From Tardiphaga robiniae (GTDB lineage Bacteria > Pseudomonadota > Alphaproteobacteria > Rhizobiales > Xanthobacteraceae), in the NCBI RefSeq assembly GCF_001618955.1, contig NZ_LVYV01000023.1:62001-126000 (forward strand): 64,000 nt of DNA. The letters are read 5' to 3'. Below the pieces are notes generated by a model, which was not told the origin of the DNA, searched no databases, and saw only the letters and a program-made list of their open reading frames with translations. Within the stretch, counting starts at the first letter, position 1. Every line of letters starts with the position of its first letter. Made by a program: the position numbers and the translations under genes. Positions 45,127 through 62,845 of the stretch are shown piece after piece.

Positions 45127-45678
45127 GGACCTCTAAGGAGCTGACCGCTCGGAGCGAGCGGTATCCCTTCACGAGCACCCTTGAGCGGGCTCGCCGCCGA
45201 TCCGCGGATGCGTATCTTGCTCTCCAGCTTTGCCCAACCCATGACTGCGATAAATTATCGGTTTTGAGAACGATGCTTCTGATTTTCAAAAGTGCCAAGT
45301 TGCGCGGCAGCCAAAGGGCGTTTTTGCCGGTGCATTTCTCATCGTGAATTGCAGAAGCCAATGCAACCACACAGTGGTCGCTGGTCGTTTTTGTGCGCGC
45401 GAGTGCCACCGATCATCTTTACATCTGACCTATCGATGTACACGGCGGAGCCGATGGCTCGACGCCGCTTCTGGCGCGCAGCCGACATTCGGCAAATAAG
45501 ATCTGTTTGGTAAGAGCCCTGCCGTCGCCCATTAATGTGGCAGCTCTGCCTAAACCGTGGGAGCGGACGATCCAAATTATTGTACGTCCCGGGACAAGCT
45601 TTCTGCGCGCAGGGGGGCATAGGCTTCTTCGAGGTTAGGAACATGGTTAGGCCATGACAACGTCGAAGGAGCGATCGA
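45127..45678. other. Regulatory intergenic region between flavin reductase and amide-type ABC operon
   Basis: A 552-base divergent region with no supportable gene. It should hold the promoters of the flavin reductase (leftward) and of the transporter operon (rightward). I saw no clear conserved sites. Confidence 0.5.
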
Positions 45679-46599
45679 ATGGTCAAGTTGCATTTTGCTG
45701 ACATCCGTAGGCTTTGGCCTGAAACGGGCGCGATGATTGGATGGCGCGCGGCGGCAGTGGGCGCGCTATTGGCGGTTGGTACCTTTGTTCCGATGTCCGC
45801 GCAGGCTGCCGTGCCGGTGGCTTGCGCCGAGTTGCAGGCGAAATATCCGGACTGGAAAGGCAAGACACTCGTCAACGCCATTAATCCGCATACACCGGGC
45901 TATGAATCGATCGATCCCAAGGATCCCAACAAATATATCGGTTTCGATATCGATCTCGGTGAGCAGATCGGCGAATGCCTTGGCTTCAAGCTGACCTACA
46001 AGGCTGTGACCTTCGCGGCCTTGCTGACCACGCTGGCATCGGGCCAGGCCGACATCGTGATTTCCGACATCTATGCCACCGAGGAGCGCGCCAAGGCGGC
46101 CGACTTCATCACCTATTCCAAGGTGTTCGACGGCGTGCTGGTCGCCAAGGGTAATCCCAAGAAGATCACCGGTATCAACACCTCGCTGTGCGGCACGGCT
46201 GCGGCGGAAAACACCGGCTATGTCGAAGTGCCGCTGATTCAGGCGTTGGGGCCGGAATGCAAGAAGGAAGGCAAGGCGGAGCCGACCATCCAGCTCTATG
46301 ACAACAATGCCAACTGCATCCAGGCGATCCTTGCCGGCCGCGCTGATACCTATATCAACGACGTCAACACCGTCGACAACGCGGTGAAGGCCTATCCGGA
46401 CAAGCTCGAGAAGGCGGTTGCGGTGACGATCCCCTATCAGGTCGGCATCGCCGTGCCGAAGGACAAGTCCAAGTTCCGCGATGCGGTGAAGGCCGCACTC
46501 ACCGAGATCTACAAGTCCGGTGATCAGCTCGCACTGCTGAAGAAGTGGAAACTCGATCCGGAAAACCTGATGGAGCCCGGCCTGCTAACGGTGAAGTAA
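45679..46599 (+). CDS. Polar amino-acid-type ABC transporter substrate-binding protein
   Basis: A 306-residue exported binding protein of family 3: signal segment WRAAAVGALLAVGTFVPMSA with cut near QAA, KYIGFDIDLGEQIGECLGF, ASGQADIVISDIYATEERAK, LLKKWKLDPENL. It has four cysteines in the mature part, unusual for this family. Together with the fused permease-ATPase at 46651 it would import a small amide or amino compound, which the amidase-type enzymes downstream would split. Confidence 0.92.
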   Translation: MVKLHFADIRRLWPETGAMIGWRAAAVGALLAVGTFVPMSAQAAVPVACAELQAKYPDWKGKTLVNAINPHTPGYESIDPKDPNKYIGFDIDLGEQIGECLGFKLTYKAVTFAALLTTLASGQADIVISDIYATEERAKAADFITYSKVFDGVLVAKGNPKKITGINTSLCGTAAAENTGYVEVPLIQALGPECKKEGKAEPTIQLYDNNANCIQAILAGRADTYINDVNTVDNAVKAYPDKLEKAVAVTIPYQVGIAVPKDKSKFRDAVKAALTEIYKSGDQLALLKKWKLDPENLMEPGLLTVK

Positions 46600-46650: not shown

Positions 46651-48261
46651 ATGGAGCTGTTCCTCCACTATCTCAGCATGCCGTATATGATCGAGGGCAT
46701 CCAGGCGACCTTGCAGGTCACCGCCCTCGGTCTGTGCGGCGGGCTGATCCTCGGCCTGATCCTGGCATGGATGCAACTCAGCAGGTTCAAGCCGCTGGCA
46801 TCCTTCGCCCGGGTCTATGCCGTGATCTTTCGCGGCACCCCGCTGATCCTGCAGATGGTGTTTGCCTATAACGCCCTGCCGCAGATCGGCATCAAGCTTC
46901 CCGCCATTCTCGCCGCCGGTCTGGCGCTGGCTTGCAACGAAGCGCCGTTCATCGCCGAGATGCTGCGCTCCGGCGTACTGGGTGTCGATCGCGGTCAGGT
47001 GGTGGCCGGCCAGGCGCTCGGCATGACCCCGGGCGTCCTGATGCGCCGGATCATCGCGCCGCAGGCGATCCGGTCGATGATCCCCGCTTTCGGCAACGAA
47101 GCGGTCAGCGCGCTGAAGAACTCGTCGCTGGCCTCCGTCATCGCCGTGCAGGAGCTGACGCTGCGCTCGACCCAGCTGGCGTCCTCGACCTTCGATTTCT
47201 TCTCGATCTTCTTCGCGTCGGGTCTGATCTATCTGCTGCTCACAGCGGCGATCGCCGGCATCCAACTGCTTCTGGAATGGAAGTTCGACCTCGATCGCAC
47301 GACCAGGCAGAACCAGTTCATGCGCTTCATGCCGTGGTATCGCGCGCCTGGCAGCGACGATCCGCTGGCGCCGCAGGTCGACATGCCGCCGGAAATCCTG
47401 CCCGACGGCGGCATTGCGGAATTACCGCCGCCGCGGATGCGGCCAGAACGCGGCGATCCCATCAAACGCGCCGAGATGCTGGCGCGCAACAATGTCGCCG
47501 TCGAGGTCTCCGATCTCCGCAAGAGCTACGACAGGAACGTGGTGCTTGACGGCGTCGACATCACAGTCAGGATCGGTGAAGTGATCGCGCTGCTCGGACC
47601 AAGTGGCTCCGGCAAGAGCACGCTGCTCCGCTGTATCAACAATCTCGAACTGTGGAACGGCGGCGCTATCAAGGTCGCCGGCCGCCAGCTCGGCTTCAAC
47701 GCGCATGGCAAGCCGCTGTCGCCGCGTTTGCTCGCGAATGCCCGCGCCGAGGTCGGCGTTGGCATGGTGTTCCAGCAGTTCAACCTGTTCGGCCACCTCA
47801 CGGCCAAGGAGAACATCGCTGGCCCGCTGCGCTGGGTGCACGGCGTGGCGCGCGCCGATGCCGAGCGCCGTGCCGATGAACTCCTGGCGCGCGTCGGTCT
47901 CAGCCACCGCGCCGATGCGCTGCCGCGGCATCTGTCCGGCGGCCAGCAACAGCGCGTTGCCATCGCCCGGGCCATCGCGCCCAATCCAAGCGTGCTGTTG
48001 CTGGACGAGCCGACTTCAGCGCTCGATCCCGAACTGGTCAATGAAGTGCTCGAAGTGATCCGCAGGCTCGCCGTCGAGGACGGTCTGACCATGATCATCT
48101 CGACGCATCAGCTCCGCTTTGCCAGCGAAGTGGCCGACCGTGTGGTGCTGCTCGCCGGAGGCGCGATCATCGAGGAAGGCCCAGCCAGTGAAGTCCTGAC
48201 CAATCCGCGCAATCCCGTCGCGCAGCGTTTCCTCAATGCGATGGAGGCGGAAGTCTCGTGA
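46651..48261 (+). CDS. Fused amino-acid ABC transporter permease and ATPase
   Basis: A 536-residue protein joining an HisM/GlnP-type permease (residues about 1-220; EAA loop AGQALGMTPGVLMRRIIAPQ) through a 60-residue linker to a GlnQ-type ATPase (Walker A LGPSGSGKSTLLRC, signature LSGGQQQRVAIARAIAP, Walker B VLLLDEPTSALDP, switch ISTHQLRFA). These are normally separate genes. The fusion keeps all needed motifs. It follows the binding protein by 51 bases. Confidence 0.93.
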   Translation: MELFLHYLSMPYMIEGIQATLQVTALGLCGGLILGLILAWMQLSRFKPLASFARVYAVIFRGTPLILQMVFAYNALPQIGIKLPAILAAGLALACNEAPFIAEMLRSGVLGVDRGQVVAGQALGMTPGVLMRRIIAPQAIRSMIPAFGNEAVSALKNSSLASVIAVQELTLRSTQLASSTFDFFSIFFASGLIYLLLTAAIAGIQLLLEWKFDLDRTTRQNQFMRFMPWYRAPGSDDPLAPQVDMPPEILPDGGIAELPPPRMRPERGDPIKRAEMLARNNVAVEVSDLRKSYDRNVVLDGVDITVRIGEVIALLGPSGSGKSTLLRCINNLELWNGGAIKVAGRQLGFNAHGKPLSPRLLANARAEVGVGMVFQQFNLFGHLTAKENIAGPLRWVHGVARADAERRADELLARVGLSHRADALPRHLSGGQQQRVAIARAIAPNPSVLLLDEPTSALDPELVNEVLEVIRRLAVEDGLTMIISTHQLRFASEVADRVVLLAGGAIIEEGPASEVLTNPRNPVAQRFLNAMEAEVS

Positions 48262-48306: not shown

Positions 48307-49548
48307 ATGAAGCATCATCTTCTTCCGGTGTCGCCGAAGACCGTTCACTGGGGCTATTTCAGCAAAGTGGTCACGCCCGCGCTGACGCTGAAGTCGGGCG
48401 ACCGTGCTACCATCGAAACGCTGACGCATCATGCCAATGACGATTACGAGCGCATGATCGAAGGCGATCCCGGCGCCGAGAGCGTGTTCAAATGGACCCG
48501 CGAGCACAAGGCCGTCGTCCGCCGCGGCTCTGGCCCGACGGAAGGTCCGTTCATCCGCGGCTCAGGCGAAGGCGTCGGCGTGCATCTGCTCACCGGGCCG
48601 GTGGCGATCGAAGGCGCGGAGCCGGGCGATGTACTGGAAGTGCGTATTCTTGACGTGCGCCCGCGGCCGGCCTGCAAGGCCTGTTATGCCGGCAAGTGCT
48701 TCGGCTCCAACGTCGCCGCGAATTGGGGCTTCCACTATCACGACCTGATCGAGGAACCGAAGCCGCGCGAGGTCGTGACGATCTTCGAGCTCGATACATC
48801 GGGCGAGCCGTTTGCCAAGGCAGTCTATAATTATGTCTGGATGCCGCAGACCGATCCCGATGGCATCCTGCATCCGACCATCGATTATCCCGGCGTGTGC
48901 GTCGATCACGCGACCATCAGGAAACGCGAAAACATTCTTCCCAACGTCAGGGTGCCGGCACGGCTGCATTTCGGCACCATGGGCCTCGCGCCATCCGAGG
49001 AGGATTTCGTGTCGTCGATCCCGCCGAGCTACACCGGCGGCAATATCGACGACTGGCGGGTCGGCAAGGGCGCCAAGATGTTCTATCCCGTGGCGGTGCC
49101 CGGCGCGTTCTTCTCGGTCGGCGATCCTCATGCCGCGCAGGGCGACAGCGAGCTCGGCGGCACGGCCATCGAGACCTCGCTGACCGGCGATTTCGAGTTC
49201 ATCCTGCACAAGCATCGCGACCTCGGCGGTACGCCCCTCGAAGGCCTGACGCATCCGATGCTGGAAACCGCCGATGCCTGGTCGGTCTACGGCTTCACCT
49301 TCCCGAATTATCTCGCCGAACTCGGCGCCAATGCGCAGCTCGACGTCGCCAATCATTCCAGCCTCGATCGGGCTATGCGCGATGCGTTCCGCAAGCTCAG
49401 GCGTTTCCTGATGACGGTGCACAAGATGAGTGAAGATGAGGCGATCTCGCTGATGTCGGTCGGTGCGGATTTCGGGGTGACGCAAGTGGTCGATGCCAAT
49501 TGGGGCGTCCATGGCACAATCCGCAAGAACGTCTTCCGCTGCGACTAA
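48307..49548 (+). CDS. fmdA: Acetamidase/formamidase family protein
   Basis: A 413-residue hydrolase of the FmdA/AmdA family that releases ammonia from formamide, acetamide or similar short amides. The family motif GDPHAAQGDSELGGTAIE is clear, preceded by IPPSYTGGNIDDWRVGKGAK and followed by AISLMSVGADFGVTQVVDAN. The start at 48307 (MKHHLLPVSP) has GAGGG upstream; an earlier in-frame start at 48280 is less likely. It is 45 bases after the transporter fusion gene. Confidence 0.93.
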   Translation: MKHHLLPVSPKTVHWGYFSKVVTPALTLKSGDRATIETLTHHANDDYERMIEGDPGAESVFKWTREHKAVVRRGSGPTEGPFIRGSGEGVGVHLLTGPVAIEGAEPGDVLEVRILDVRPRPACKACYAGKCFGSNVAANWGFHYHDLIEEPKPREVVTIFELDTSGEPFAKAVYNYVWMPQTDPDGILHPTIDYPGVCVDHATIRKRENILPNVRVPARLHFGTMGLAPSEEDFVSSIPPSYTGGNIDDWRVGKGAKMFYPVAVPGAFFSVGDPHAAQGDSELGGTAIETSLTGDFEFILHKHRDLGGTPLEGLTHPMLETADAWSVYGFTFPNYLAELGANAQLDVANHSSLDRAMRDAFRKLRRFLMTVHKMSEDEAISLMSVGADFGVTQVVDANWGVHGTIRKNVFRCD

Positions 49549-49676
49549 GCGGATGAAATTGCACTGAATTCGGCTATGAGGATGGTGGCGCGGTGATTGG
49601 GGAGGTTGCAGGGCAGGGCGCTGCGTCCTTCGGGATGGCACGGAGGTTGCTTCGCTTCGGCTATGAAGGTCGATGC

Positions 49677-52037
49677 ATGAGCCTCCGTCCGTTCACCAGT
49701 GAATCCTACTCTGAAGACGACCGCCCCGAAGCATGGCGCGACGTCCTGAGTTCGATTGGCCTGCAGCCGACGGCTGCGACGACCACGCATCACGGCCACG
49801 CCACCGCAGTTCGTCGCACCTTCGAAGGTATTGCACTGGCCAAATTATCTGCCGGCGCACAGGCGATCTCGCCGCTGTCGGATCTGGCCAGCGACCATCC
49901 CCTGGTGTTGCTGCCGCTAGAGGACGGTGTCGGCCTGAAGACAGTCGCCGGACATCAGATCGTCGCCGTCGGGCATCTGCTGTTGCTGCCGCGCAAAGGG
50001 GACTGGAGCGTCGCATTCCAGCGCGACATGCGCGCGGTGGTGCTCTCGGTGACGTCCGATCCGCTGCACAGCCGCCGCGCCAGTGCACCTGCCATCGCCG
50101 ATGTCCAGATCGTAGGCCCCGGCGGCTTCGGCGATGTGTTCGCGCGTATGATGGAACAGGCAGCCCGCAACCTCGAAACATTGTCCGATGCCGAATGGTT
50201 GGCGATCGCACAAAGTCTTGCCGATCTGTTGCCGACCTTTACACGCCAATTGGCCGAGCCGACGGCTGATCTCAACAGCGGCACGGCGACCAAGGCTGCG
50301 ACCTTGCATCGGCTGTGCCAGACCATCGAGCGACGCCTCGACGATGCGGATCTGACGCCGGCCAAGGTGGCGCAGGCCGAGGGCATCTCCGAACGTTATC
50401 TGCAGAAACTGTTCGAAGGCACCGGCAGCAGCTTTACGCATTACCTGCGCGAACGCCGGCTGCAGCGCACCTGGGCCGATCTGTCGAATCCGTCCGAGGC
50501 GCATCACTCGATTTCCGAGATTGCCTTTCGTGCTGGCTTCAATGACTCCGCGCATTTCAGTCGCACGTTCCGTCACCGCTTCGGCCTGTCGCCGCGCGAA
50601 TTCCGCCAGAATGAAGCTGAGCGCTTGACGGCGTCGGCGATGGCGGCGGGACAACGCGGCTGGCCGCAGGAAGCGCTGGCGCAGTTGCGCAGCCAGCACG
50701 GGCCGTCGACCGCGGGGAAGATTGCGAAGCCGGAGCCGGCCGAGACGATCACGCACGGCATCGCGGATGCTTCGAAGAATCAGCGGCACCATCATCTCGC
50801 CGCCGATGCATCTCGCGTGCACTGGGGCTATTTCAGCCGCTCGTTGCCGCCGCAGATCGAGATCAATTCCGGCGACACGATCACCATCGAAACACTGACG
50901 CAGCACGCATCCGACGATCCCGAGCGGATGATCAAGGGCGATATCGGCGCTGAGAGCGTGTTCCGCTGGACGCGCGATCAGAAGAATGTCGATCGCCGCG
51001 GGGCCGGTCCGATGGACGCCTCGATCTATGGCCGCGGTGCGGGCGAGGGCTTTGGCGTTCACATTTGCACCGGGCCGGTGGCGATCAGGGACGCGCAGCC
51101 CGGCGACGTGCTTGAAATCCGCATCCTCGACATCGTGCCGCGCGCCAGTCGAAATCCGGATTTCGACGGTCAGGTTTTCGGCAGTAGCGTCGCGGCGTGG
51201 TGGGGCTATCACTACAAGGAATTTCTCGCCGAGCAGAATGCGCGCGAGGCGGTGACGATCTACGAAATTCTCGATCACGACGACGTGCCGTATGCGCGCG
51301 CGCTCTATTCGTATCGCTGGGAGCCGCAGACCGATCCGTTCGGCACCGTGCACAATACCTACGACTATCCTGGCATTCCGATTACGCCGGCCTCGGTGCG
51401 GCGTCGGCATGACGTGCTCGACGGCATTCGCATTCCGCTGCGCCCGCATTTCGGTGTCATTGCCGTAGCGCCGCGCGAGGCCGATCTCGTCGATTCAGTG
51501 CCGCCAGCCTATTTTGGCGGTAATCTCGACAATTGGCGGCTCGGCAAGGGATCGACGGTCTATCTACCGGTGTCGGTGCCCGGCGCATTGCTGTCGGTCG
51601 GCGATCCCCATGCCGCGCAGGGCGACGGCGAACTCGGCGGCACGGCGATCGAATGTTCGATGACCGGAACCTTCGAGGTGATCTTGCACAAGAAGGGCAA
51701 TCTCGCCGGCCAGGCGTTCGCCGATCTCACTTATCCGCTGATCGAGACCGAGAGTGACTGGGTGTTGATGGGCTTCAGCCATCCGAACTATCTCGCTGAA
51801 TTCGGCGCCAAGGGGCAGAGCGAGGTCTACGCGACCTCGTCGCTCGATCTCGCGATGAAGGACGCCTTTCGCAAGATGCGGCGTTTCCTGATGAACATCA
51901 AAGGTCTCACCGAAGACGAAGCGATCGCGTTGATGTCAGTCGCGGTCGACTTTGGCGTGACGCAGGTCGTCGATGGCAATTGGGGCGTCCATGCCATTCT
52001 GAGCAAGCGGGTGTTCGACCACACGTCAAAATCATAA
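49677..52037 (+). CDS. AraC-type regulator fused to an acetamidase/formamidase domain
   Basis: A 786-residue two-part protein. Residues 1-320 are an AraC regulator: an AraC-binding-like domain (LPLEDGVGLKTVAGHQIVAV, LLLLPRKGDW) and a double helix-turn-helix (AQAEGISERYLQKLFEGTGS, ISEIAFRAGFNDSAHFSRTF, RHRFGLSPREFRQNE). Residues about 370-786 are a full acetamidase/formamidase domain with GDPHAAQGDGELGGTAIE, a close relative of the neighbouring enzyme. The join near residues 320-370 is a low-complexity linker with no stop or frameshift. The enzyme half may act as an amide sensor or remain catalytic. ATG 49677 matches the regulator start. Confidence 0.93.
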   Translation: MSLRPFTSESYSEDDRPEAWRDVLSSIGLQPTAATTTHHGHATAVRRTFEGIALAKLSAGAQAISPLSDLASDHPLVLLPLEDGVGLKTVAGHQIVAVGHLLLLPRKGDWSVAFQRDMRAVVLSVTSDPLHSRRASAPAIADVQIVGPGGFGDVFARMMEQAARNLETLSDAEWLAIAQSLADLLPTFTRQLAEPTADLNSGTATKAATLHRLCQTIERRLDDADLTPAKVAQAEGISERYLQKLFEGTGSSFTHYLRERRLQRTWADLSNPSEAHHSISEIAFRAGFNDSAHFSRTFRHRFGLSPREFRQNEAERLTASAMAAGQRGWPQEALAQLRSQHGPSTAGKIAKPEPAETITHGIADASKNQRHHHLAADASRVHWGYFSRSLPPQIEINSGDTITIETLTQHASDDPERMIKGDIGAESVFRWTRDQKNVDRRGAGPMDASIYGRGAGEGFGVHICTGPVAIRDAQPGDVLEIRILDIVPRASRNPDFDGQVFGSSVAAWWGYHYKEFLAEQNAREAVTIYEILDHDDVPYARALYSYRWEPQTDPFGTVHNTYDYPGIPITPASVRRRHDVLDGIRIPLRPHFGVIAVAPREADLVDSVPPAYFGGNLDNWRLGKGSTVYLPVSVPGALLSVGDPHAAQGDGELGGTAIECSMTGTFEVILHKKGNLAGQAFADLTYPLIETESDWVLMGFSHPNYLAEFGAKGQSEVYATSSLDLAMKDAFRKMRRFLMNIKGLTEDEAIALMSVAVDFGVTQVVDGNWGVHAILSKRVFDHTSKS

Positions 52038-52055: not shown

Positions 52056-52442
52056 TTGCAATTTCACATGATCTCCGGCGGGCCGAAGCCGGTCGCGCCG
52101 TTCAGCCATGCTGTGGAGACCGATGGCTTCGTGTTCGTCACCGGGCAGATGCCAGACACGCCGGCAATGCCGGGCGTGCTGCCCGATGGCATCGTGGCAC
52201 AGACCGAAGCGGTGATGGAAAATCTGCGCGTGGTGCTCAAGGGGCTCGAGCTGGGCTTCGAGCACATCACCATGACCCGGATCTATCTCACCGAGTTCAA
52301 GCGCGACTACGTGGCGATGAACGAAACCTATCGCAGCTATTTTCCGCCGGATCGCCTGCCGGCGCGGACCTGTGTCGGCGTCACGGGCCTCGCTTATGAC
52401 GCTCTGATCGAAATCGACCTGGTTTGTCGACGGCCCACATAA
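52056..52442 (+). CDS. RidA family protein (reactive intermediate deaminase-like)
   Basis: A 128-residue protein of the RidA/YjgF/UK114 group: FSHAVETDGFVFVTGQMPDT, VMENLRVVLKGLELGFEHIT, RIYLTEFKRDYVAMNETY, and RLPARTCVGVTGLAYDALIE with the substrate-site arginine in PARTCV. These deaminate enamines/imines or clear side products of amine metabolism. Start TTG 52056 with GGAGA seven bases upstream; ATG 52068 is the alternative. It closes the operon with the amidase fusion. Confidence 0.92.
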   Translation: MQFHMISGGPKPVAPFSHAVETDGFVFVTGQMPDTPAMPGVLPDGIVAQTEAVMENLRVVLKGLELGFEHITMTRIYLTEFKRDYVAMNETYRSYFPPDRLPARTCVGVTGLAYDALIEIDLVCRRPT

Positions 52443-53078: not shown

Positions 53079-54260
53079 ATGCTCTCATCACTGCAGATTG
53101 CAACGACCGGTGCGCTGCCGATGCCGGCGCCTTGGTTGCTGAAGGGCTTTCAGGACAGCGGGGGAGGCCGTGACGCGATTGCACGTCCCGATCTGTTTCC
53201 GCGGCGTCGCAATCGCGAAAAGCTGCGCGTCGTCAATTTTATCGGCTTGTCCGGCCCGGCCGGGATCTGGGGCCTGGCGGGCACCAATAGCATGATGCTC
53301 GCGGCTTCGGAGATCAATCGGCGCGGCGGCATTCTTGGGCGCGAGATCGAGCCGGTGTTTCATGACGCCGGCGGCGATATCGATGGCGTTGTCCGCACGG
53401 CAGCCGACATGATCGCGGCTGGTGATGTCGATGTCATCATGGGCTCGCATATCAGCGCGGTCCGCGTCGCGCTGCGCAAGGTGATTGCCGGGCGCGTGCC
53501 CTATATCTACACGCCTGTCTATGAAGGCGGAGAACGCACGCCTGGCGTGATGGCGATCGGCGAGACGCCGCGCGATCAGTCACGCCCGGCCATCGAATGG
53601 CTGGCGAGTGAAAAGAAAGCGGCGCGCTGGTATCTGATCGGCAGCGATTACGTTTGGCCGTGGCTGGCCCACAAGGCCACCAAGACATACATCGCCGGCG
53701 CCGGAGGGCGCGTGGTCGGTGAGGAATTCGTTGCGCTTGGCGAGCAGAATCACGATGCCCAGATCGCCCGTATCCGGGCCGCCAAGCCGGACGTCGTGGT
53801 CATCTCGCTGATCGGCACCGACAGCATCGTGTTTAACCGTGCCTTCGCTGAACATGGTCTCTCGTCGAAGGTTCTCCGACTGGCGGGGGCCATGGATGAA
53901 ACGCTGCTGCTCGGCATGGGCGCGGATAGCTCCGAGGGGCTCTATTGTGCATCGGGCTATTTCGTCGACCGTGCGTCGGCGGCGAATGATGCATTCCGTG
54001 CGCAATATGAAGCATCGTTCGGACGCTGTGCGCCTGTGCCGGGATCGGTCGCGCAGTCGAACTACGAGGGGCTTCGGTTTCTCGAATCCGTGGCGACCAA
54101 GGCGGGCTCATTCGACGTCCGGCCGATGCTGAACGCGGCGTCCAGCGTGGCCTATCACGGCGCCCGCGGTGAGATCAGCATGCGCGGCGGGCGGGCGAAA
54201 ATGCCGATCTATCTTGCCGAAGCAGACGGTCTGGATTTCAGGCTCATCCGGACATTCTAG
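53079..54260 (+). CDS. AmiC-like amide/urea receptor, no signal peptide
   Basis: A 393-residue protein of the periplasmic-binding-protein type 1 fold (VVNFIGLSGPAGIWGLAGTN, GGILGREIEPVFHDAGGDID, YTPVYEGGERTPGVMAIGET), near the length and pattern of AmiC/FmdD short-chain amide receptors. The N-terminus MLSSLQIATTGALPMPAPWL is followed by charged sequence (RRRNREKLR) and lacks a signal peptide. In Pseudomonas AmiC is a cytoplasmic amide sensor, so this could be a sensor and not a transport component; the Liv system has its own exported binding protein at 56842. Confidence 0.85.
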   Translation: MLSSLQIATTGALPMPAPWLLKGFQDSGGGRDAIARPDLFPRRRNREKLRVVNFIGLSGPAGIWGLAGTNSMMLAASEINRRGGILGREIEPVFHDAGGDIDGVVRTAADMIAAGDVDVIMGSHISAVRVALRKVIAGRVPYIYTPVYEGGERTPGVMAIGETPRDQSRPAIEWLASEKKAARWYLIGSDYVWPWLAHKATKTYIAGAGGRVVGEEFVALGEQNHDAQIARIRAAKPDVVVISLIGTDSIVFNRAFAEHGLSSKVLRLAGAMDETLLLGMGADSSEGLYCASGYFVDRASAANDAFRAQYEASFGRCAPVPGSVAQSNYEGLRFLESVATKAGSFDVRPMLNAASSVAYHGARGEISMRGGRAKMPIYLAEADGLDFRLIRTF

Positions 54261-54429
54261 GTCAGTCGCAGATGACCCGATCGGGACGATCCCGAAAAAT
54301 AATACTTGAAAAGGAAAATATTTCTCTTTCTAATGATGCGCGAAAGGCGACACCGTCGTCGCCTTGACGGCGTGGGCATCCCGAAGAAATGCCGCGCCGG
54401 TTGCATCGTGGATATCAGGAGAAATCATC

Positions 54430-55944
54430 GTGGCCGTTTCACTTCCCACTCCCGATCAACTCCTCGCCGTCGCCGACCAGTGCGGCCTCGCGCTGTCCGA
54501 TGAGGACGTCACCTCGTTCCGGGCGCTGATGCAGGGATCGGTCGATGCCTACAACGTCGTGGCGGCGATGCCCGACGAAGTGCCCGAGGTGAAATATCCG
54601 CGTACGCCTGGCTATCGGCCCGCGCCGGAAGAGAACACGCGCAACGCCTGGTATCGCAAGTCGGTGGTGAAGGGTGCGCCCAGCGGCAAGCTCAAGGGCA
54701 AGACCGTCGCGCTGAAGGACAACATCATGCTGGCCGGCGTGCCGATGATGAACGGCTCCTCCACGCTGGAAGGCTATGTGCCGGATTTCGACGCCACCAT
54801 CGTCACGCGCATGCTGGACGCGGGCGCCGAGATCATGGGCAAGGTGCATTGCGAATCCTTCTGCATGTCCGGCGGCAGCCACACCAATTCGACGGGCAAC
54901 GTGCATAACCCGCACAAGATGGGCTATTCCGCCGGCGGGTCGTCGTCCGGCAGTGCCGTTGTCGTGGCGCTTGGCGAAGTCGACATGGCAATCGGCGGCG
55001 ATCAGGGTGGCTCGATCCGCATGCCGTCGTCCTTCTCGGGCACCTATGGCATGAAGCCGACCTGGGGTCTGGTGCCTTATACAGGCATTATGCCGATCGA
55101 GATATTCGTCGATCACACCGGCCCGATGACATCCAACGTCGCCGACAATGCGCTGCTGCTGGAAGTGCTTGCCGGCGATGACGGCTATGATCCGCGGATC
55201 AAGTCGCCGGAAGTGCCGGAATACACCAAGGCACTTGGCGTCGGCGTCAAGGGCATGAAGATCGCCATCGTCAAGGAAGGCTTCGAGCAGCTCGGCGCCG
55301 AGGACGCGGTCAATCGCAGCGTTCGCGAAGCCGCCAAGCGTTTCGCCGATCTCGGCGCGACCGTGGAGACGATCTCGATCCCGATGCATCTCACCGCGGC
55401 GGCGGTCTGGACCCCAATCGGCACCGAAGGCATGACCCAGACCATGATGGTGGGCGACGGCTATGGCCTCAGCCGGTCCGATCTCTATTCGACCTCGCTG
55501 ATGGACGCCCATCGTGGCTGGCGCGGGCAGGCGGACTCGCTGTCCGAAACCACCAAGCTGCTGCTGCTGTTCGGCACCTATATCAACAATAATTTCGGCC
55601 CTCGTTTTTACGGCAAGGCACTGAACATCTCGCGTCGCGTCACGGCTGCCTATGACAAGGCGCTGGCGAGCTATGATCTGTTGCTGATGCCGACCACGCC
55701 GATGAAGGCAACGCCGCTGCCGGCGCCCGGCGCGCCGCGTGAAGAAGTCGTCGGCCGCGCCTTCGAAATGATCTCCAACACCTCGCCCTTCGACATTTCG
55801 CATCATCCGGCGATGTCGATCCCCTGCGGCATGGTTGATGGTCTGCCCGTCGGACTGATGCTGGTTGGCAAGCATTTCGACGAGATGACCATCTATCGCG
55901 CCGCGCACGCCTTCGAGCAGTGCGGCGACTGGAAGTCGATGTGA
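54430..55944 (+). CDS. Amidase (amidase signature family)
   Basis: A 504-residue amidase that hydrolyses an amide to acid and ammonia. The serine-serine-lysine triad is visible: lysine 96 in VALKDNIML, serine 171 in AGGSSSGSAVV and serine 195 in GGDQGGSIRMPSS. Further conserved is FSGTYGMKPTWGLVPYTG. Start is the GTG at 54430 with AGGAG eight bases upstream; the frame extends to 54364 without support. It precedes the Liv-type transporter genes, so the pair imports and splits an amide. Confidence 0.94.
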   Translation: MAVSLPTPDQLLAVADQCGLALSDEDVTSFRALMQGSVDAYNVVAAMPDEVPEVKYPRTPGYRPAPEENTRNAWYRKSVVKGAPSGKLKGKTVALKDNIMLAGVPMMNGSSTLEGYVPDFDATIVTRMLDAGAEIMGKVHCESFCMSGGSHTNSTGNVHNPHKMGYSAGGSSSGSAVVVALGEVDMAIGGDQGGSIRMPSSFSGTYGMKPTWGLVPYTGIMPIEIFVDHTGPMTSNVADNALLLEVLAGDDGYDPRIKSPEVPEYTKALGVGVKGMKIAIVKEGFEQLGAEDAVNRSVREAAKRFADLGATVETISIPMHLTAAAVWTPIGTEGMTQTMMVGDGYGLSRSDLYSTSLMDAHRGWRGQADSLSETTKLLLLFGTYINNNFGPRFYGKALNISRRVTAAYDKALASYDLLLMPTTPMKATPLPAPGAPREEVVGRAFEMISNTSPFDISHHPAMSIPCGMVDGLPVGLMLVGKHFDEMTIYRAAHAFEQCGDWKSM

Positions 55945-55979
55945 GGCATCCATGCAGAAGCGAGGATCGGTGATCACGC

Positions 55980-56837
55980 ATGGATAATCTGATCATGGCG
56001 GTCTTCGAGATCGCCAGTTTCGGGGCGATCGTCGTGCTGGTCGTGCTGGGGCTGGGGATCATCGCCAGCATGATGGGCATCTTCAATTTCGCGCAGGGCG
56101 AGTTCGTTCTACTCGGGGCCTATGTCACCTACATTGTTCACACCGCGGGTTTGCCGGTGTGGCTCGGTATGATTGCGGCGCCATTTGTCGTCGGCGCGTT
56201 AGGCTTCGTGCTGGAACGCCTCATCGTCCGGCGATTCTATGCCGCGCCGATCGTCGCCATGCTCGGCACCTATGCGCTTGGGTTGATCATCCGCGAGATC
56301 GTGCGTGGCCTGATCGGCGGGCTGTATCTCTCGGTACCGGAGCCGGTCGGCGGTTCGGTGACCATCGGCGGCATGCATTTCTCAACCTGGCGTCTGGTGA
56401 TCATCGTGATCACCGCGCTGGTGATGGCAGGGAGCTATCTGCTTCTGGCGCGCACCGCGTTCGGCCTGCGCATCCGCGCTTCGCTGGAGAACCCGGCGCT
56501 GGCGCGGGCCTCCGGCATTTCGACCAACGCAATCTATGGCGCAACCTTCGCCTTTGGTGCCGCGCTCGCAGGTCTGGCTGGCGCGCTGATCGTGCCGGTG
56601 TTCACGCTGTTCGCCGATCTCGGCATCCGCTTTCTGATTCAGGGCTTCGTCGCTGTCATGGTCGGTGGCATCGGCTCCTTTGCCGGCCCGGTCGCTGGCG
56701 CAGGCCTGATCGGCACGCTGAGTGCGGCGCTGCCCTGGGTCATCTCGCCCGTTATCGCCGATGTCGCCGTATTCGTGCTCGCCATCATCTTCATCAAATT
56801 CCGGCCGCAGGGCCTTGTTGCAGGAAAAGGGGTTTAG
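55980..56837 (+). CDS. Branched-chain/urea-type ABC transporter permease (LivH-like)
   Basis: A 285-residue permease with about eight hydrophobic helices, LivH family features LGLGIIASMMGIFNFAQGEF, the EAA-like RIRASLENPALARASGIS and FVAVMVGGIGSFAGPVAGAG. It acts with the LivM-like protein at 58134 and ATPases at 59168 and 59895. It is 35 bases after the amidase gene. Confidence 0.94.
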   Translation: MDNLIMAVFEIASFGAIVVLVVLGLGIIASMMGIFNFAQGEFVLLGAYVTYIVHTAGLPVWLGMIAAPFVVGALGFVLERLIVRRFYAAPIVAMLGTYALGLIIREIVRGLIGGLYLSVPEPVGGSVTIGGMHFSTWRLVIIVITALVMAGSYLLLARTAFGLRIRASLENPALARASGISTNAIYGATFAFGAALAGLAGALIVPVFTLFADLGIRFLIQGFVAVMVGGIGSFAGPVAGAGLIGTLSAALPWVISPVIADVAVFVLAIIFIKFRPQGLVAGKGV

Positions 56838-56841
56838 TCCG

Positions 56842-58062
56842 ATGTCACGTGACGCCAACAATCTCAGCCGCCGCCGCTTTCTCGGCAACTTCGCCTTTGC
56901 TTCGACGGCCATCGCCACCGGTGTCGGCAGCTGGGTCATCCCCGCAGGCTGGGCCAACGCGGCAGCCGGACCGATCAAGGTCGGTGTCGGTACCGATCTG
57001 ACCGGGCCGATGGGCTATGCCGGCAATGCTGACGCCAATGTGGCCAGGATGGTGATCAAGGACATCAACGATGCCGGCGGTCTGCTTGGCCGGCCGCTGG
57101 AACTGTATATCGAGGACACTGCGTCCAATGAATCCGTCGCGGTCGGCAATGTGCGTAAGCTGATCCAGCGCGAGAAGGTCGATCTGGTCATCGGCGGTAT
57201 CACCTCGTCGATGCGTAACGCCATCAAGGACGTCATCGTCTCCCGCGGGAAGACGCTCTATATCTATCCGCAACTCTATGAAGGCAAGGAATGCACGCCC
57301 TATCTGTTCTGCACCGGGCCGACCCCGGCGCAGCAATGCGATGAATTCATTCCCTGGCTGATCAAGAATGGCGGCAAGAAATTTGCGCTGCCCAGTGCCA
57401 ATTACGTCTGGCCGCATACGTTAAACGTCTATGCGCGCAAGGTGATCGAGGCCAATGGCGGCGAGGTCGTGTTCGAGGAGTACTATCCGCTCGACCAGAT
57501 CGATTTTTCGTCGACAGTGAACCGCATCATTTCGAACAAGGTCGATGTCGTCTTCAACACCGTCATTCCGCCAGGTGTCGGGCCGTTCTTCAAGCAGCTC
57601 TCCGAAGCGGGCTTCCTCAAGAATGGCGGGCGGCTCGCCTGCGTCTACTATGACGAGAACACGCTGAGCATCAATCAGCCGGCCGAGATCGAGGGCCTCG
57701 CGAGCTGCCTCGATTACTTCAAGGCGCTGACGCCGGAAGATCCGTTCAGCGCCAAACTCCAGGCTGCCTACGAAAAACAGTTTCCGGGCAATTTCCTGTT
57801 CGCGGCTGGCAGCGCCGCGACCGGCACCTATCGCGGCCTGAAACTGTGGGAGGCGGCCGTCAAGGAAGCCGGCAGTGTCGATCGTGATGCAGTTGCCAAG
57901 GCGCTAGACCATGCCAAGATCGCCGAAGGCCCGGGCGGCCCGGCCGAGATGGTCCCCGGTCAGCGGCACTGCAAGATGAAGATGTATACGGCGGTGGCCA
58001 AGGGCGGCAAATATGAGGTCGTCGCGCGCAGCGCCGGTCTCGTCGATCCCAAGGAATGCTGA
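56842..58062 (+). CDS. Urea/amide-type ABC transporter substrate-binding protein (Tat-exported)
   Basis: A 406-residue binding protein of the UrtA/AmiC/FmdD type. The N-terminus has a twin-arginine motif (LSRRRFLGNFAFASTAIATG), so export goes through Tat. The mature protein shows IKVGVGTDLTGPMGYAGNAD, AGGLLGRPLELYIEDTASNE and IYPQLYEGKECTPYLFCTGP. ATG 56842 follows livH by four bases. A terminator-like hairpin lies after its stop. Confidence 0.94.
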   Translation: MSRDANNLSRRRFLGNFAFASTAIATGVGSWVIPAGWANAAAGPIKVGVGTDLTGPMGYAGNADANVARMVIKDINDAGGLLGRPLELYIEDTASNESVAVGNVRKLIQREKVDLVIGGITSSMRNAIKDVIVSRGKTLYIYPQLYEGKECTPYLFCTGPTPAQQCDEFIPWLIKNGGKKFALPSANYVWPHTLNVYARKVIEANGGEVVFEEYYPLDQIDFSSTVNRIISNKVDVVFNTVIPPGVGPFFKQLSEAGFLKNGGRLACVYYDENTLSINQPAEIEGLASCLDYFKALTPEDPFSAKLQAAYEKQFPGNFLFAAGSAATGTYRGLKLWEAAVKEAGSVDRDAVAKALDHAKIAEGPGGPAEMVPGQRHCKMKMYTAVAKGGKYEVVARSAGLVDPKEC

Positions 58063-58081
58063 GCCGATAGTTCTAACCTCA

Positions 58082-58113
58082 CGGGAGTGACCGATATCAC
58101 TCCCGCTTCTCTT
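58082..58113 (+). terminator. Intra-operon hairpin after the binding-protein gene
   Basis: Stem CGGGAGTGA (58082-58090) with TCACTCCCG (58097-58105), loop CCGATA, followed by CTTCTCTTTCTC. It lies between the binding-protein gene and the livM-like gene. Such hairpins often make the binding protein transcript more abundant than the membrane components. Confidence 0.75.
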
Positions 58114-58133
58114 TCTCTCATGCCGGCGACCTG

Positions 58134-59165
58134 ATGACCGAGACGACGCCACTCTCTGCCGTATCTCTGACGCGAGGCATCAGCGCATCGCGCCAATGGC
58201 GCGTGCTGCCGATGATCGAGATCGCAGTGCTGGTCATCGGCCTGCTGCTGCCGCTGGTGCTGCAGGACTATCTCACCGTCTATGCCACGCGCGTGCTGAT
58301 CCTCTGCCTGTTCGCGCTGTCATTCGACCTGGTCTGGGGCCATGCCGGCATCATGAGTTTCGGCCAGGCCGTGTTCTTCGGCTCTGCCGGGTATGGCGTG
58401 GCGCTGCTGGCGCGCGATCTCGGCATTACCTCGATGCTGCTGGTGTTGCCTGCGGGAGTGCTGATCGGCTTCGCCTTCGCCCTGCTGCTCGGCGGCTTTC
58501 TGCTGCTTGGTCGCCATCCCGCCAGCGTGATTTTCGTGGCCCTGGGCACGCTGACCGGCTCCTATGCCTGCGATCGCCTGGCGCGGGGGTGGTATTATCT
58601 CGGCGGCCAGAACGGCATTCCCTCGATTCCGCCGATGACAATCGGCAGCTATGAGCTCACAGAGGGACCTGCCTATTACTACACGGCCATCGGCTTTCTG
58701 ATCGTGGTCTATCTGCTCTGTCGTTTCCTGATGCGCTCGCAATTCGGCCTCGCGCTGGCCGGCCTGCGCGAGAACGAACAGCGCATCGCCTTCTTTGGCT
58801 ACAAGGTGCAGCACCTCAAGGCGATCATCTTCTCGCTCAGTGGCGCCATCGCCGGGCTCGCCGGCAGCCTCTATGCGTTCCACGAAGGCTTCGTCTGGCC
58901 CAACATGCTGGGCGTCGTGATTTCCACCCAGGTGGTGCTCTATGTGCTGTTCGGCGGCTCCGGCACACTGATAGGCGCCGTGATCGGCACGGTCGTCATT
59001 GAGGCCGTCAGCTTCTGGCTGTCGAACAGCTATCAGGACATCTGGCCGATCATTCTTGGCGTATTGCTGCTGCTGGTCATCCTGTTCCGGCCCGCAGGAC
59101 TGGTCAGCCTGTTGTTGTCAGAGCGCGAGCGCGTCGGCAGCTTCGGCCGTCCGGGGAAGCGATAG
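58134..59165 (+). CDS. Branched-chain/urea-type ABC transporter permease (LivM-like)
   Basis: A 343-residue permease with about ten hydrophobic helices and the LivM pattern ALSFDLVWGHAGIMSFGQAV, LALAGLRENEQRIAFFGYKV, LYVLFGGSGTLIGAVIGTVV. It partners the LivH-like permease. Its stop is two bases before the start of the LivG-like gene. Confidence 0.94.
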   Translation: MTETTPLSAVSLTRGISASRQWRVLPMIEIAVLVIGLLLPLVLQDYLTVYATRVLILCLFALSFDLVWGHAGIMSFGQAVFFGSAGYGVALLARDLGITSMLLVLPAGVLIGFAFALLLGGFLLLGRHPASVIFVALGTLTGSYACDRLARGWYYLGGQNGIPSIPPMTIGSYELTEGPAYYYTAIGFLIVVYLLCRFLMRSQFGLALAGLRENEQRIAFFGYKVQHLKAIIFSLSGAIAGLAGSLYAFHEGFVWPNMLGVVISTQVVLYVLFGGSGTLIGAVIGTVVIEAVSFWLSNSYQDIWPIILGVLLLLVILFRPAGLVSLLLSERERVGSFGRPGKR

Positions 59166-59167
59166 TC

Positions 59168-59902
59168 ATGGCGCTTCTGGAAGCAAGAGGCCTCATCAAG
59201 ATATTCGGCAAGCTCACGGCGCTGAACGGCGCGGACCTGACCATCGCCCACAATGAGTTTCACGGACTGATAGGTCCCAATGGTTCCGGCAAGAGCACGC
59301 TGATGAAATGTATCGCCGGTGCAGAGACGCCGACGCAAGGCACGGTTACATTTGCTGGTCGCGATATCACGCAGGCTTCGCCGGCGGAGCGCGCCCGTGC
59401 CGGTATGAGCCTGAAATTCCAGATCACCAGCGTGCTGCCGGCGCTGACGCTGTACGACAACATCCTGCTGGCACTGCAGGCGCAGACGTCGCTGCTCAAT
59501 CTGGCGCTGTCGCGCACCCGCGGCGTGCTGCATGACAAGGTAATGGCGATGCTGGAGCAGTTCCGCCTCGTCGATCGCGCCCACGAGCCGGCATCCGCTC
59601 TGTCGCACGGGCAGCAGCAATGGCTTGAGATCGCCATGGCGCTGGCGCCCGAGCCGAAGCTCCTGCTGCTCGATGAGCCGACCGGCGGCATGAGCCTGGA
59701 AGAGCGCCGCGTCACCGGCGAATTGTTGCAGCCGATCAAGGCGCGCTGTTCGCTCGTCATCGTCGAGCACGATCTCGATTTCATCCGCGATATCTGCGAC
59801 CGCCTCACGGTGCTGGATCAGGGCCAGATCCTGCAGACCGGCTCGGTGCAGCATGTGCAGTCGTGCCCCAGGGTCCAGGAGGTCTATCTCCGCCGTGCCT
59901 GA
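59168..59902 (+). CDS. LivG-like ABC transporter ATP-binding protein
   Basis: A 244-residue ATPase: Walker A IGPNGSGKSTLMKCIAG, an altered signature ALSHGQQQWLEIAMALAPEP (SHGQQQ, as usual in the urea/branched-chain type LivG), Walker B LLLLDEPTGGMS and switch histidine in IVEHDLDF. Starts ATG 59168 directly after the livM-like stop and overlaps the livF-like gene. Confidence 0.94.
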   Translation: MALLEARGLIKIFGKLTALNGADLTIAHNEFHGLIGPNGSGKSTLMKCIAGAETPTQGTVTFAGRDITQASPAERARAGMSLKFQITSVLPALTLYDNILLALQAQTSLLNLALSRTRGVLHDKVMAMLEQFRLVDRAHEPASALSHGQQQWLEIAMALAPEPKLLLLDEPTGGMSLEERRVTGELLQPIKARCSLVIVEHDLDFIRDICDRLTVLDQGQILQTGSVQHVQSCPRVQEVYLRRA

Positions 59903-60596
59903 CGATAAATTCCTCGATATCCAGTCGCTGGATGCCGGTTACGGCCGCAGCCAGGTGCTGTTCGGCGTTACGCTCAGCGTGCCGTGGCGCGGCGGCGTGG
60001 CCATTCTCGGCCGCAACGGCGCCGGCAAAACTACGTTGATGAAGGCTATTGTCGGCGAGTTGCCGGTGCTCGGCGGTGCGGTGAGCCTCGATGGCCGCGA
60101 TGTCGGCAAACTGCCGACCGAGCAGCGTATCCGTCGCGGCGTCGGCTATGTCCCGCAGGAACATTCGGTGTTCGCGAAACTGTCGGTGCGGGACAATCTC
60201 GCCGTCGGCGCGCTGACCAATCGCGACAGCGGGGCAGTCAACCGCGTGCTGGAGATTTTCCCCAAGCTCGGCCAGCGGCTCGACCAGTTTGCCGGCACGC
60301 TGTCCGGCGGTGAGCGCAAGATGCTGGCGATCGGACGCGCCATGCTGTCCGACCCCAAAATCTTGCTGCTGGATGAGCCGACTGAGGGCGTCTGGATCGG
60401 TGTCATCGAGGAAATTACCGAGCGCCTGATCCTGCTGGCGAAGGACATTGCCGTCGTCATCGTCGAACAGCATCTCGATCTCGCGCTTCGCGTCGCGAGC
60501 CGCGCTTACGTGCTGGATCGCGGCCGGGTAGCGCTGACAGGTTCGGCCGGCGAGATTCGCGACGATCCAAGATTATTGCAGTATTTGGCGCCTTAG
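59895..60596 (+). CDS. LivF-like ABC transporter ATP-binding protein
   Basis: A 233-residue ATPase: Walker A LGRNGAGKTTLMKAIVGELP, signature LSGGERKMLAIGRAMLSDPK, Walker B ILLLDEPTEGVW and VIVEQHLDLALRVASRAYVL. The Walker B next residues read TEGVWIGVIEEI where TEGLAP is common. The GTG start at 59895 overlaps the livG-like stop by eight bases. It ends the amide transporter operon. Confidence 0.93.
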   Translation: MPDDKFLDIQSLDAGYGRSQVLFGVTLSVPWRGGVAILGRNGAGKTTLMKAIVGELPVLGGAVSLDGRDVGKLPTEQRIRRGVGYVPQEHSVFAKLSVRDNLAVGALTNRDSGAVNRVLEIFPKLGQRLDQFAGTLSGGERKMLAIGRAMLSDPKILLLDEPTEGVWIGVIEEITERLILLAKDIAVVIVEQHLDLALRVASRAYVLDRGRVALTGSAGEIRDDPRLLQYLAP

Positions 60597-61636: not shown

Positions 61637-62836
61637 CTAGGCCGAATCGGAGCCGCACTCCGCCAAGTTCCTCACGCAATGACGCGCGATTACTAACTCC
61701 TCGTTCGTCGGAATGATCCTTATTTCAATACTGCTATCCCTAGTGCTGATGCACGCGGATCCCGCTTTGTTTGCGTCTGCATCGAGGGCGAGACCTAACC
61801 AGCTCAACTGCTCGCAAACGCGCCGTCGAATTTCCTGTGCGTGCTCGCCAATCCCACCGGTGAAGATCAGGCAATCCAGACCATGGAGACTGTTGACCAT
61901 CATCGCCGATTGTCTGGCGATAGAATCCACGAACAGATCGATGGCTTCGGAGGCATACGGGCTTTCACTTGCGAGCAGTGCTCGTATGTCGCCTGATAGT
62001 CCCGACACTCCAAGCAGCCCGGAGTCTCGATAGAGCAGGTCTTCGAGGTCGGTTGCCGACATTCCACGCTGTTGTTGCAGATAGAGGAGCACGCCGGGAT
62101 CAATGGCGCCGCAGCGGGTCGCCATCACCAAGCCGTCGAGCGGCGTGAAACCCATTGTGGTGTCGATACTGGCGCCATCGCGCATGGCGCATAGACTGGC
62201 GCCGCTGCCCAGATGTGCGACAACGCATCGTTTCTCGCCGGCAGATGGTGAGAGTTCCTGGAGTCGTCCGGCAATGAACTCGAACGACAGTCCATGAAAT
62301 CCGTAACGGCGGATGCCGGTGTCATGAATCTGGCGTGGAATGGCAAAGCGGGTGGCGGAGGCGGGAAGTGAGTGGTGGAACGCCGTGTCGAAGCAGGCAA
62401 CCTGGGGCAGTTCCGGCCGTTCGGTCATGATCGCACGTATCGGCGATAGACAGCGTGGCTGATGCAGTGGCGCCATCAGTGTCAGCTTTTCAAGCTCATT
62501 GACTATCGATCCCGTCAATCGGACCGGCGTTGCGAAGGCCAATCCGCCATGCACCACGCGATGACCAACTGCAATCAGATCGTCACTGGCAAGATAGCCA
62601 TCGACCCAGTTCAACGCATCGAGCAGCAGCTCTTCTCCGTGGCGGTCTGCGACCTTGCGATGCCGATCATAGAGAATGGCTCCATCGGTCTCCTTGATCG
62701 TCAGGCGCGGTTCGACCTCGTGTTCGTCCAGACTCCCTCGGCAGAGCAATCTCGGCTCCCCATCCGATGCGATATCGAATAGCGCAAGCTTGATGCTTGA
62801 AGAGCCGGAGTTCACGACAAGGACGGCATCTGGCAT
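61637..62836 (-). CDS. ackA: Acetate kinase
   Basis: A 399-residue acetate kinase converting acetyl phosphate and ADP to acetate and ATP. It shows LVVNSGSSSIKLALFD, the GHRVVHGGLAF signature, CFDTAFHHSLP, RRYGFHGLSFEFIA, HLGSGASLCAMRDG and FTGGIGEHAQEIRR. It lies ten bases downstream of phosphoketolase on the same strand, so the two form a phosphoketolase-acetate kinase route that makes ATP from sugar phosphates. Confidence 0.97.
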   Translation of the reverse strand: MPDAVLVVNSGSSSIKLALFDIASDGEPRLLCRGSLDEHEVEPRLTIKETDGAILYDRHRKVADRHGEELLLDALNWVDGYLASDDLIAVGHRVVHGGLAFATPVRLTGSIVNELEKLTLMAPLHQPRCLSPIRAIMTERPELPQVACFDTAFHHSLPASATRFAIPRQIHDTGIRRYGFHGLSFEFIAGRLQELSPSAGEKRCVVAHLGSGASLCAMRDGASIDTTMGFTPLDGLVMATRCGAIDPGVLLYLQQQRGMSATDLEDLLYRDSGLLGVSGLSGDIRALLASESPYASEAIDLFVDSIARQSAMMVNSLHGLDCLIFTGGIGEHAQEIRRRVCEQLSWLGLALDADANKAGSACISTRDSSIEIRIIPTNEELVIARHCVRNLAECGSDSA

Positions 62837-62845
62837 TGTTTGTCC

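Follow-up and report, generated by a model that had tools for sequence, protein, structure and literature searches.

A conserved fusion of an AraC-type regulator and an FmdA/AmdA-family amidase domain beside a transporter–amidase operon of Tardiphaga robiniae

The acetamidase operon of Mycobacterium smegmatis encodes an amide-inducible acetamidase of the FmdA/AmdA family, together with several separate regulator proteins and a transporter. In Methylophilus methylotrophus, the FmdA operon is induced by formamide and urea and repressed by ammonia, and FmdA-family operons with amide transporters are already known; the accessible portion of that source (PMC10781810) mentions no enzyme-fused regulator and does not state that the transporter is of the family-3 type found here. 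PutA and BirA are described as “trigger enzymes”, each an enzyme and a repressor in one protein (accessible portion of PMC6978683). Here, we analyze a protein encoded in a 64,000-nucleotide stretch of T. robiniae contig NZ_LVYV01000023.1 (hereafter, the window), in which an AraC-type regulator and an FmdA/AmdA-family amidase domain form a single polypeptide of 786 residues. PutA and BirA likewise combine an enzyme and a DNA-binding part in a single chain that regulates the genes of its own pathway (same portion of PMC6978683), but their DNA-binding and enzyme folds are different ones, and their activity and repression have been shown, whereas the activity and DNA binding of the T. robiniae fusion are predicted. 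The fusion has the architecture of a trigger enzyme, with a DNA-binding and an enzyme domain in one protein that are assigned to the same pathway by domain content and operon context. No description of an AraC–FmdA/AmdA fusion with its operator and promoter was found in the literature searched, which covered a minority of subscription journals, and the claim of the first-pass annotation that the design is undescribed holds within that literature. What appears to be new is an FmdA-family domain fused to a regulator, with a predicted operator and a promoter; enzyme–regulator proteins as such are known.

The fusion gene comprises the following parts.

49677..52037, plus strand: fusion gene, AraC-type regulator and FmdA/AmdA amidase domain, 786 amino acids
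49785..50234, plus strand: AraC_binding_2 sensor domain, residues 37-186 (Pfam 29.7 bits, cut-off 27)
50370..50609, plus strand: double helix-turn-helix HTH_18, residues 232-311 (Pfam 77.8 bits, cut-off 33.6)
50637..50786, plus strand: linker of about 50 residues, residues 321-370 (predicted local distance difference test score, pLDDT, <50 over 322-367)
50655-50666, plus strand: RGWP in the linker, residues 327-330
50772..52019, plus strand: FmdA/AmdA amidase domain, residues 366-781 (592 bits to 3b9t)
50901-50903, plus strand: Gln409 codon
51564-51566, plus strand: Leu630 codon
51600-51632, plus strand: amidase signature GDPHAAQGDGE within the FmdA/AmdA domain

Positions 49677-52037 are one stop-free reading frame of 786 codons, and translation, Pfam, and alignment to the solved structure 3b9t agree with the initial description of an uninterrupted frame in which an AraC regulator is followed by an amidase domain. 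An alternative start, GTG at 49593, would give 814 amino acids; the ATG at 49677 is favored because a conserved sigma-54 promoter sits at 49636-49651. The N-terminal ligand-binding domain of the AraC/XylS type scores barely above the Pfam threshold. The DNA-binding domain of this family, about 100 residues with two helix-turn-helix motifs, is clearly present and matches Protein Data Bank chains of MarA, Rob, and AraC. FeaR is the best NCBIfam match of the AraC half (111 bits, below the cut-off of 199), and FeaR and other AraC_binding_2 regulators share its domain order of sensor followed by double helix-turn-helix; FeaR-type proteins end at this point. The remainder of the fusion matches Pfam FmdA_AmdA (PF03069; 104.6 bits, cut-off 27) and contains the amidase motif GDPHAAQGDGELGGTAIE, and it reaches 60.7 bits with the NCBIfam formamidase equivalog model NF045496, far below the cut-off of 500. 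The closest solved structure, 3b9t, which aligns with residues 366-781, is a stand-alone enzyme, Tat-exported according to its title, and has His where the fusion has Gln409. The predicted structure of the whole fusion is of low quality (mean pLDDT 70.9; predicted template modeling score 0.50; poor stretches in the amidase domain), and the domain arrangement was therefore not interpreted.

The fusion is real and conserved as one polypeptide. Loci of relatives were taken from one contig scan as the best 80 of 105 relatives, all matching nearly the whole protein, and the fusion is one closed frame over the whole protein in 75 of these 80. The remaining loci either run off their contigs (L091, L098, and L101; 3/80) or, in two metagenome-assembled genomes, carry a stop at about residue 641 (L092) or 181 (L108). 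The linker, where according to the first-pass annotation a missed stop or frameshift would refute the fusion, is open in relatives. All six operon parts are present in 67 of the 80 loci. Contig ends truncate the operon in L038, L045, L084, L091, L098, and L101 and on the upstream side of L036; the Rid gene is absent from the operon in L036, L037, and L094-L096, and in L106 and L107 the fusion stands without any operon neighbors. The record titled Frankia sp. RB7 (L053) has a Bradyrhizobium-type operon (73%), which may reflect a wrong title or a mixed assembly.

A search for the same domain pair in other genomes, as had been proposed, found it to be common among relatives and present on plasmids. 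With the window's own genome excluded, 10 of 17 genomes of the same genus carry the fusion; in the rest of the family, 1 of 19 genomes has it, and among 24 genomes of the order there is none. Samples of the class and phylum, which count the window's own genome and some repeats, yielded 4 of 385 and 8 of 398, respectively, and one carrier in the phylum sample, G614, belongs to another class. Such fusions had been called rare, a label that these counts qualify. At least 80% of the fusion is held by 16 of 19 matching plasmid records, from Alpha- and Betaproteobacteria (Rhizobium, Neorhizobium, Caballeronia, Paraburkholderia, Variovorax, Novosphingobium, Sinorhizobium, and others); record H2 coincides with G100 in length and match place and is not independent. 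Eleven of the 19 records were fetched for detailed comparison. The Pfam architecture is the same in all 8 distant fusions scanned, with the sensor domain below the Pfam cut-off in G100 (26.9) and G383 (20.7). Public annotations name the protein “acetamidase/formamidase family protein” or “AraC family transcriptional regulator”. On the Rhizobium johnstonii plasmid pRlX5 (L207, 5565-7974), the fusion is annotated as two frames, a hypothetical protein and an acetamidase.

Immediately before the fusion gene lies a promoter-type sequence that matches the sigma-54 consensus TGGCACG-N4-TTGCW. Promoters of this class depend on RpoN together with an enhancer-binding protein.

49636..49651, plus strand: sigma-54 (-24/-12) type promoter TGGCACGGAGGTTGCT, 25 bases before the fusion ATG, 0 mismatches

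Among the 80 loci, a site no more than 90 bases upstream of the start has no mismatch in 33 and one mismatch in 42. Weaker sites occur in Ancylobacter L094-L096 (two mismatches) and in L106 and L107 (four). The sequence between this site and the stop codon of the upstream stand-alone amidase gene, amdS, is hardly conserved. The site is present with one mismatch in all four Burkholderiales plasmids fetched (L205, L206, L208, and L209). It also precedes the unfused araC gene of G306, where 6 of 2000 random 360-base segments score equal or better. The shorter sigma-54 pattern is expected 0.16 times in the window. The whole genome has ten perfect sites, and the reversed control has none. Among the products of the frames that follow the other perfect sites (8 scanned) are three enzymes (a uricase, an isochorismatase, and an amidohydrolase), a dicarboxylate symporter, and binding proteins of families 5 and 8; these downstream genes fit nitrogen and carbon scavenging. 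In Bradyrhizobium sp. DOA9, the equivalent sequence is TGGCACAGAGGTTGC; the RpoN study of this strain does not list it among the sites tabulated in its main text, as far as the accessible portion of that source extends (PMC13207237). Upstream of the operon's first gene, no sigma-54 site was found, all 74 stretches having at least 2 mismatches.

A second conserved element lies upstream of the transporter–amidase operon. Alignment of the region before the solute-binding protein gene in 23 loci revealed a conserved block, from which we derived a predicted operator.

45573..45600, plus strand: predicted operator, 28 bases, upstream of the transporter–amidase operon
45529..45556, plus strand: possible weaker second operator copy, 44 bases upstream, a conserved block in close relatives
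45620..45625, plus strand: TAGGCT, a -10-like conserved element identified by eye

With the window's sequence excluded, the operator matrix scores 40.5 bits at 45573-45600 and at most 7.4 bits elsewhere in the 64 kb. In each of 72 loci, the best match of the whole locus precedes the solute-binding protein gene by no more than 260 bases; 20 of the 72 belong to the 21 that built the matrix, and the remainder are relatives. The core pattern has a single exact match in the 6.36-Mb genome, and the fusion is therefore apparently a single-target regulator; with 2 mismatches, four more genome matches appear, equal to the reversed control's total. The promoters upstream of 45679 and 48307 had both been put forward as targets. 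The former is preceded by the predicted operator, and upstream of 48307 no operator stood out. Two operator contacts one helical turn apart would fit an AraC-type site, and TAGGCT or TAAGCT about 20 bases beyond the operator would fit the promoter of an activator. A clear second operator copy was not supported: the candidate, which shares the orientation of the main site and lies 44-45 bases upstream of it, is weak beyond close relatives, ranking second among the tested offsets in the diverse set, in which the best-scoring offset is +49 in reverse orientation.

We also scored 18 loci outside the matrix, which left out L149 for the window scan and both L149 and L144 for this test. None of 60 shuffles reaches the best score in L143, L145, L146, L147, L181, and L185, one does in L148 and L183, two in L178 and L151, and three in L150; the number rises to between 15 and 60 in L106, L107, L179, L180, L182, L184, and L186. 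In L143, the predicted operator occupies the gap from which the fusion (Met inferred at 8143) and the stand-alone amidase diverge. In L146, it is at the start of the divergently oriented amidase frame, some 150 bases ahead of the fusion, and in L148 it immediately precedes the fusion. Elsewhere it precedes a short amidase and two other genes (L145), an ATP-binding cassette (ABC) cluster (L147), or a Rieske oxygenase gene (L183), lies between a major facilitator superfamily gene and a short-chain dehydrogenase/reductase gene (L181), or is found near an amidase and a luciferase-type oxygenase gene (L185). Of 11 plasmids, 9 have their best match at the transporter/amidase promoter; it mostly precedes the start by about 100 bases (L203-L207, L209, L210, and L213, with L203 and L213 being near copies) and falls in the divergent gap in L212. 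Pooling 31 sites gives the consensus CAAnTttTTGTGCGCcCncgGACAAGnn (23.9 bits).

The operon genes are ordered on the same strand as solute-binding protein, ABC permease–ATPase, AmdS, fusion, and Rid protein.

45679..46599, plus strand: solute-binding protein, family 3 (SBP_bac_3; Pfam 95 bits)
46651..48261, plus strand: ABC transporter, permease and ATPase in one protein (Pfam BPD_transp_1 and ABC_tran)
48307..49548, plus strand: stand-alone amidase AmdS, 413 amino acids, FmdA_AmdA family (Pfam 107.7 bits)
52056..52442, plus strand: Rid-family protein, 128 amino acids (Pfam Ribonuc_L-PSP 91.9 bits)

AmdS is 57% identical to fusion residues 368-780, in agreement with the earlier observation that a stand-alone paralog lies directly upstream. 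It is not supported as the direct source of the fused domain. When 55 amidase domains are placed in a tree, a single branch (Shimodaira–Hasegawa-like approximate likelihood ratio test, SH-aLRT, 98) separates the 23 that are fused from the rest, and with plasmids included, 34 fused rows of 70 form one clade (SH-aLRT 99), the other 36 being stand-alone. The fused clade lies outside the AmdS clade, closest to stand-alone enzymes of the 3b9t type. Both trees come from quick searches for which SH-aLRT is the only support measure; the first left out L092_FUS, L108, and L091, and the second left out these and six long-branch rows, L023-L028. Unfused AraC relatives were found in G401, G262, G432, G306, G442, and G757. 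The araC gene directly follows a short amidase in G757 and a truncated one in G442; the two genes are about 18 kb apart on one contig in G401 and on separate contigs in G432 and G306, and no amidase was found in G262 at the search cut-off used. In the AraC tree (L101, L108, and L092 left out), five unfused rows nest among the fused ones beside L145 and L147 (2 changes; long branches). One fusion followed by one loss is the simplest account, with several gains possible. Probably, the amidase domain was captured once by an AraC-type regulator and then kept.

Both halves of the fusion are under purifying selection, and the amidase domain is kept as strictly as an enzyme. Median ratios of nonsynonymous to synonymous substitution rates (dN/dS) are lowest for AmdS (0.10) and the fused amidase (0.13), followed by the helix-turn-helix (0.16), the sensor (0.31), and the linker (0.56) (276 pairs from 24 chosen loci of the 80), values that are rough because synonymous sites are near saturation. 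Asp618, Asp643, His645, Asp650, Glu652, and Glu659 are invariant across 89 fused and 95 stand-alone rows, a comparison from which rows shorter than 381 residues, exact duplicates, L092_FUS, and the stand-alone L108 were left out. Two positions separate the groups: 409 is Gln in 89/89 fused and His in 95/95 stand-alone rows, and 630 is Leu in 89/89 fused rows and Tyr in 94 of 95 stand-alone ones, with Phe in one. With plasmids and short amidases added, Gln409 is found in 33 and Leu630 in all of 34 fused rows, against His in 36/36 and Tyr in 35/36 stand-alone rows; the sole fused row keeping His409 is Novosphingobium L210. Each change may have been a single event, since the fused domains share one ancestor, and both residues have been maintained across a wide divergence of fusions. 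Leu at 630 and a residue other than His at 409 occur in alignments of other solved family members; Gln409 and Leu630 are therefore no proof of lost activity. About 15 residues after the helix-turn-helix, within the otherwise fast-evolving linker, an RG-x-P motif is kept (window 50655-50666; L143-L148; L203-L213), reading RGWP in the main group and RGRP, RGWP, RGKP, or RGLP elsewhere, and it is present in 11 plasmid fusions. The RGRP variant of some lineages resembles the core of an AT-hook.

On balance, these data incline us, if only slightly, toward a locally acting AraC-type activator of an amide uptake and hydrolysis operon, with the fused amidase tuning the regulator. In this genus, the fusion gene would be transcribed from its own sigma-54 promoter, and therefore the protein should be made when fixed nitrogen is scarce. 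It would bind the predicted 28-base operator ahead of the first gene and most likely activate the operon, with the AraC domain, the amidase domain, or both sensing the compound. The cell would import an amide-type nitrogen compound, split it, and take up the ammonia. The fused amidase would bind, and probably also hydrolyze, the same class of compound, and could tune the regulator either by reporting occupancy or by clearing nearby inducer as a built-in brake. The wiring of promoter, operator, and operon is better supported than the trigger-enzyme part of this mechanism.

Several observations weigh against this account. The sigma-54 pattern is not significant within the window alone, where 16 of 100 shuffles had a match. 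No such site (4-5 mismatches) precedes the fusion in the 7 non-Burkholderiales plasmids fetched, and it is also absent in L106, L107, L144, and several others; nitrogen control is therefore not universal. The operator matrix derives from close relatives. No operator stands out in the fusion-bearing L106 and L107 or the unfused L179, L180, and L182, the matches in L178 and L183 are weak, and some sites (L145, L147, L181, and L183) precede other genes. Among the 11 plasmids examined, none was found in L208 and L211, and plasmid operators are singly weak, 0-4 of 40 shuffles reaching the best score. The nested unfused AraC rows mean that a single fusion requires a later loss, or else several gains. 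The change of His409 to Gln could also mean weakened catalysis.

A more far-reaching formulation is that these are widespread AraC-type trigger enzymes. Their amidase domain, changed at two positions at which stand-alone enzymes are conserved, would sense or remove the amide and in this way control the AraC half at one operon promoter, with sigma-54 gating synthesis of the protein; we regard this as possible but doubtful. Two points temper it. Unfused AraC relatives lie beside related amidases, and the amidase domain is therefore not required for the regulator lineage; the AraC ligand domain is under purifying selection, and the amidase therefore need not be the sensor.

The alternative that survives best, though we think it probably incorrect, is a plain bifunctional fusion, which would serve only the joint production of a regulator and a further amidase isoform, with no signal passing between the two. 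A flexible, fast-evolving linker would suit it, as would the unfused relatives just mentioned, and the constraint on the fused amidase, close to that on AmdS, is what is expected of a working enzyme; it accounts less well for a further amidase in an operon that already has one, for residues fixed only in the fused domain (Gln409 and Leu630), and for the retention of RG-x-P. Rather unlikely is a catalytically impaired, enzyme-derived sensor that would pass a signal to the AraC half on binding the amide. The uniform replacement of His409 and Tyr630 in all 89 fused rows would suggest such a loss, but Asp618, Asp643, His645, Asp650, and Glu652 are invariant in every fused row examined, other solved members share Leu630 and the absence of His409, and L210 keeps the His. 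An amidase domain that serves as an oligomerization scaffold, so that the AraC halves grip two operator copies, is improbable: the weak upstream copy would provide the second grip, and a fungal formamidase is described as a homotetramer (a title in the reference list of PMC10781810, within its accessible portion), but that copy fades beyond close relatives, the best offset is in reverse orientation, and the conserved active-site signature would be left unexplained. A sequencing artefact that joined two genes through a missed stop or frameshift can be ruled out with near certainty, since the stops in L092 and L108 (2/80 loci) and the split annotation of L207 face 75 intact loci over many independent assemblies and fusions in other families and in Betaproteobacteria.

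The proposed amide substrate follows from the enzyme family. On the Caballeronia plasmid L205 (1-1557), the operon has a nitrile hydratase beta gene and the gene of a GTP-binding protein as neighbors, which suggests a route from nitrile to amide to acid and would fit an amide substrate. Next to the short amidase of G306 (L185, 281-3490) are a luciferase-type monooxygenase nearest RutA, an isochorismatase-type hydrolase nearest RutB or biuret hydrolase, and an amidohydrolase, all below NCBIfam cut-offs; these Rut-like enzymes fit a broader range of nitrogen compounds. In two distant genomes (L145, 4077-5282; L183, 5617-6840), the short amidase and araC adjoin genes for a Rieske ring-hydroxylating oxygenase and a TauD-type dioxygenase, some of which are preceded by predicted operators. 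With such Rut-like and Rieske neighbors in some unfused or distant loci, the substrate could therefore be other than an amide.

Downstream of the operon, the window contains a second amide-type cluster (53079-60596). It encodes a Peripla_BP_6 protein, which looks AmiC-like by eye and has no evident signal peptide, and a signature amidase (809 bits to PRK07235 vs 545), together with permeases of the branched-chain/urea type, a further binding protein, and two ATPases. Among L029-L108, its first two genes adjoin the operon only in L029-L031. Acetate kinase and phosphoketolase (XFP) genes lie adjacent to each other on the minus strand at 61637-63985.

Few proteins combine the roles of enzyme and transcription factor, and those few have been studied intensively. 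The domain pair described here is conserved in records of Bradyrhizobium, Rhodopseudomonas, Rhizobium, Caballeronia, Paraburkholderia, Variovorax, and Novosphingobium, and the unfused relatives, the predicted operator, and the sigma-54 promoter make modulation of a regulator by its attached enzyme domain directly testable. The fusion seems to be an undescribed link between the sensing and the use of a nitrogen source in soil and root bacteria. If its domains communicate, it would be a natural amide biosensor, and if it is indeed a trigger enzyme, it would unite a nitrogen-status gate, substrate sensing, and substrate removal in one molecule.

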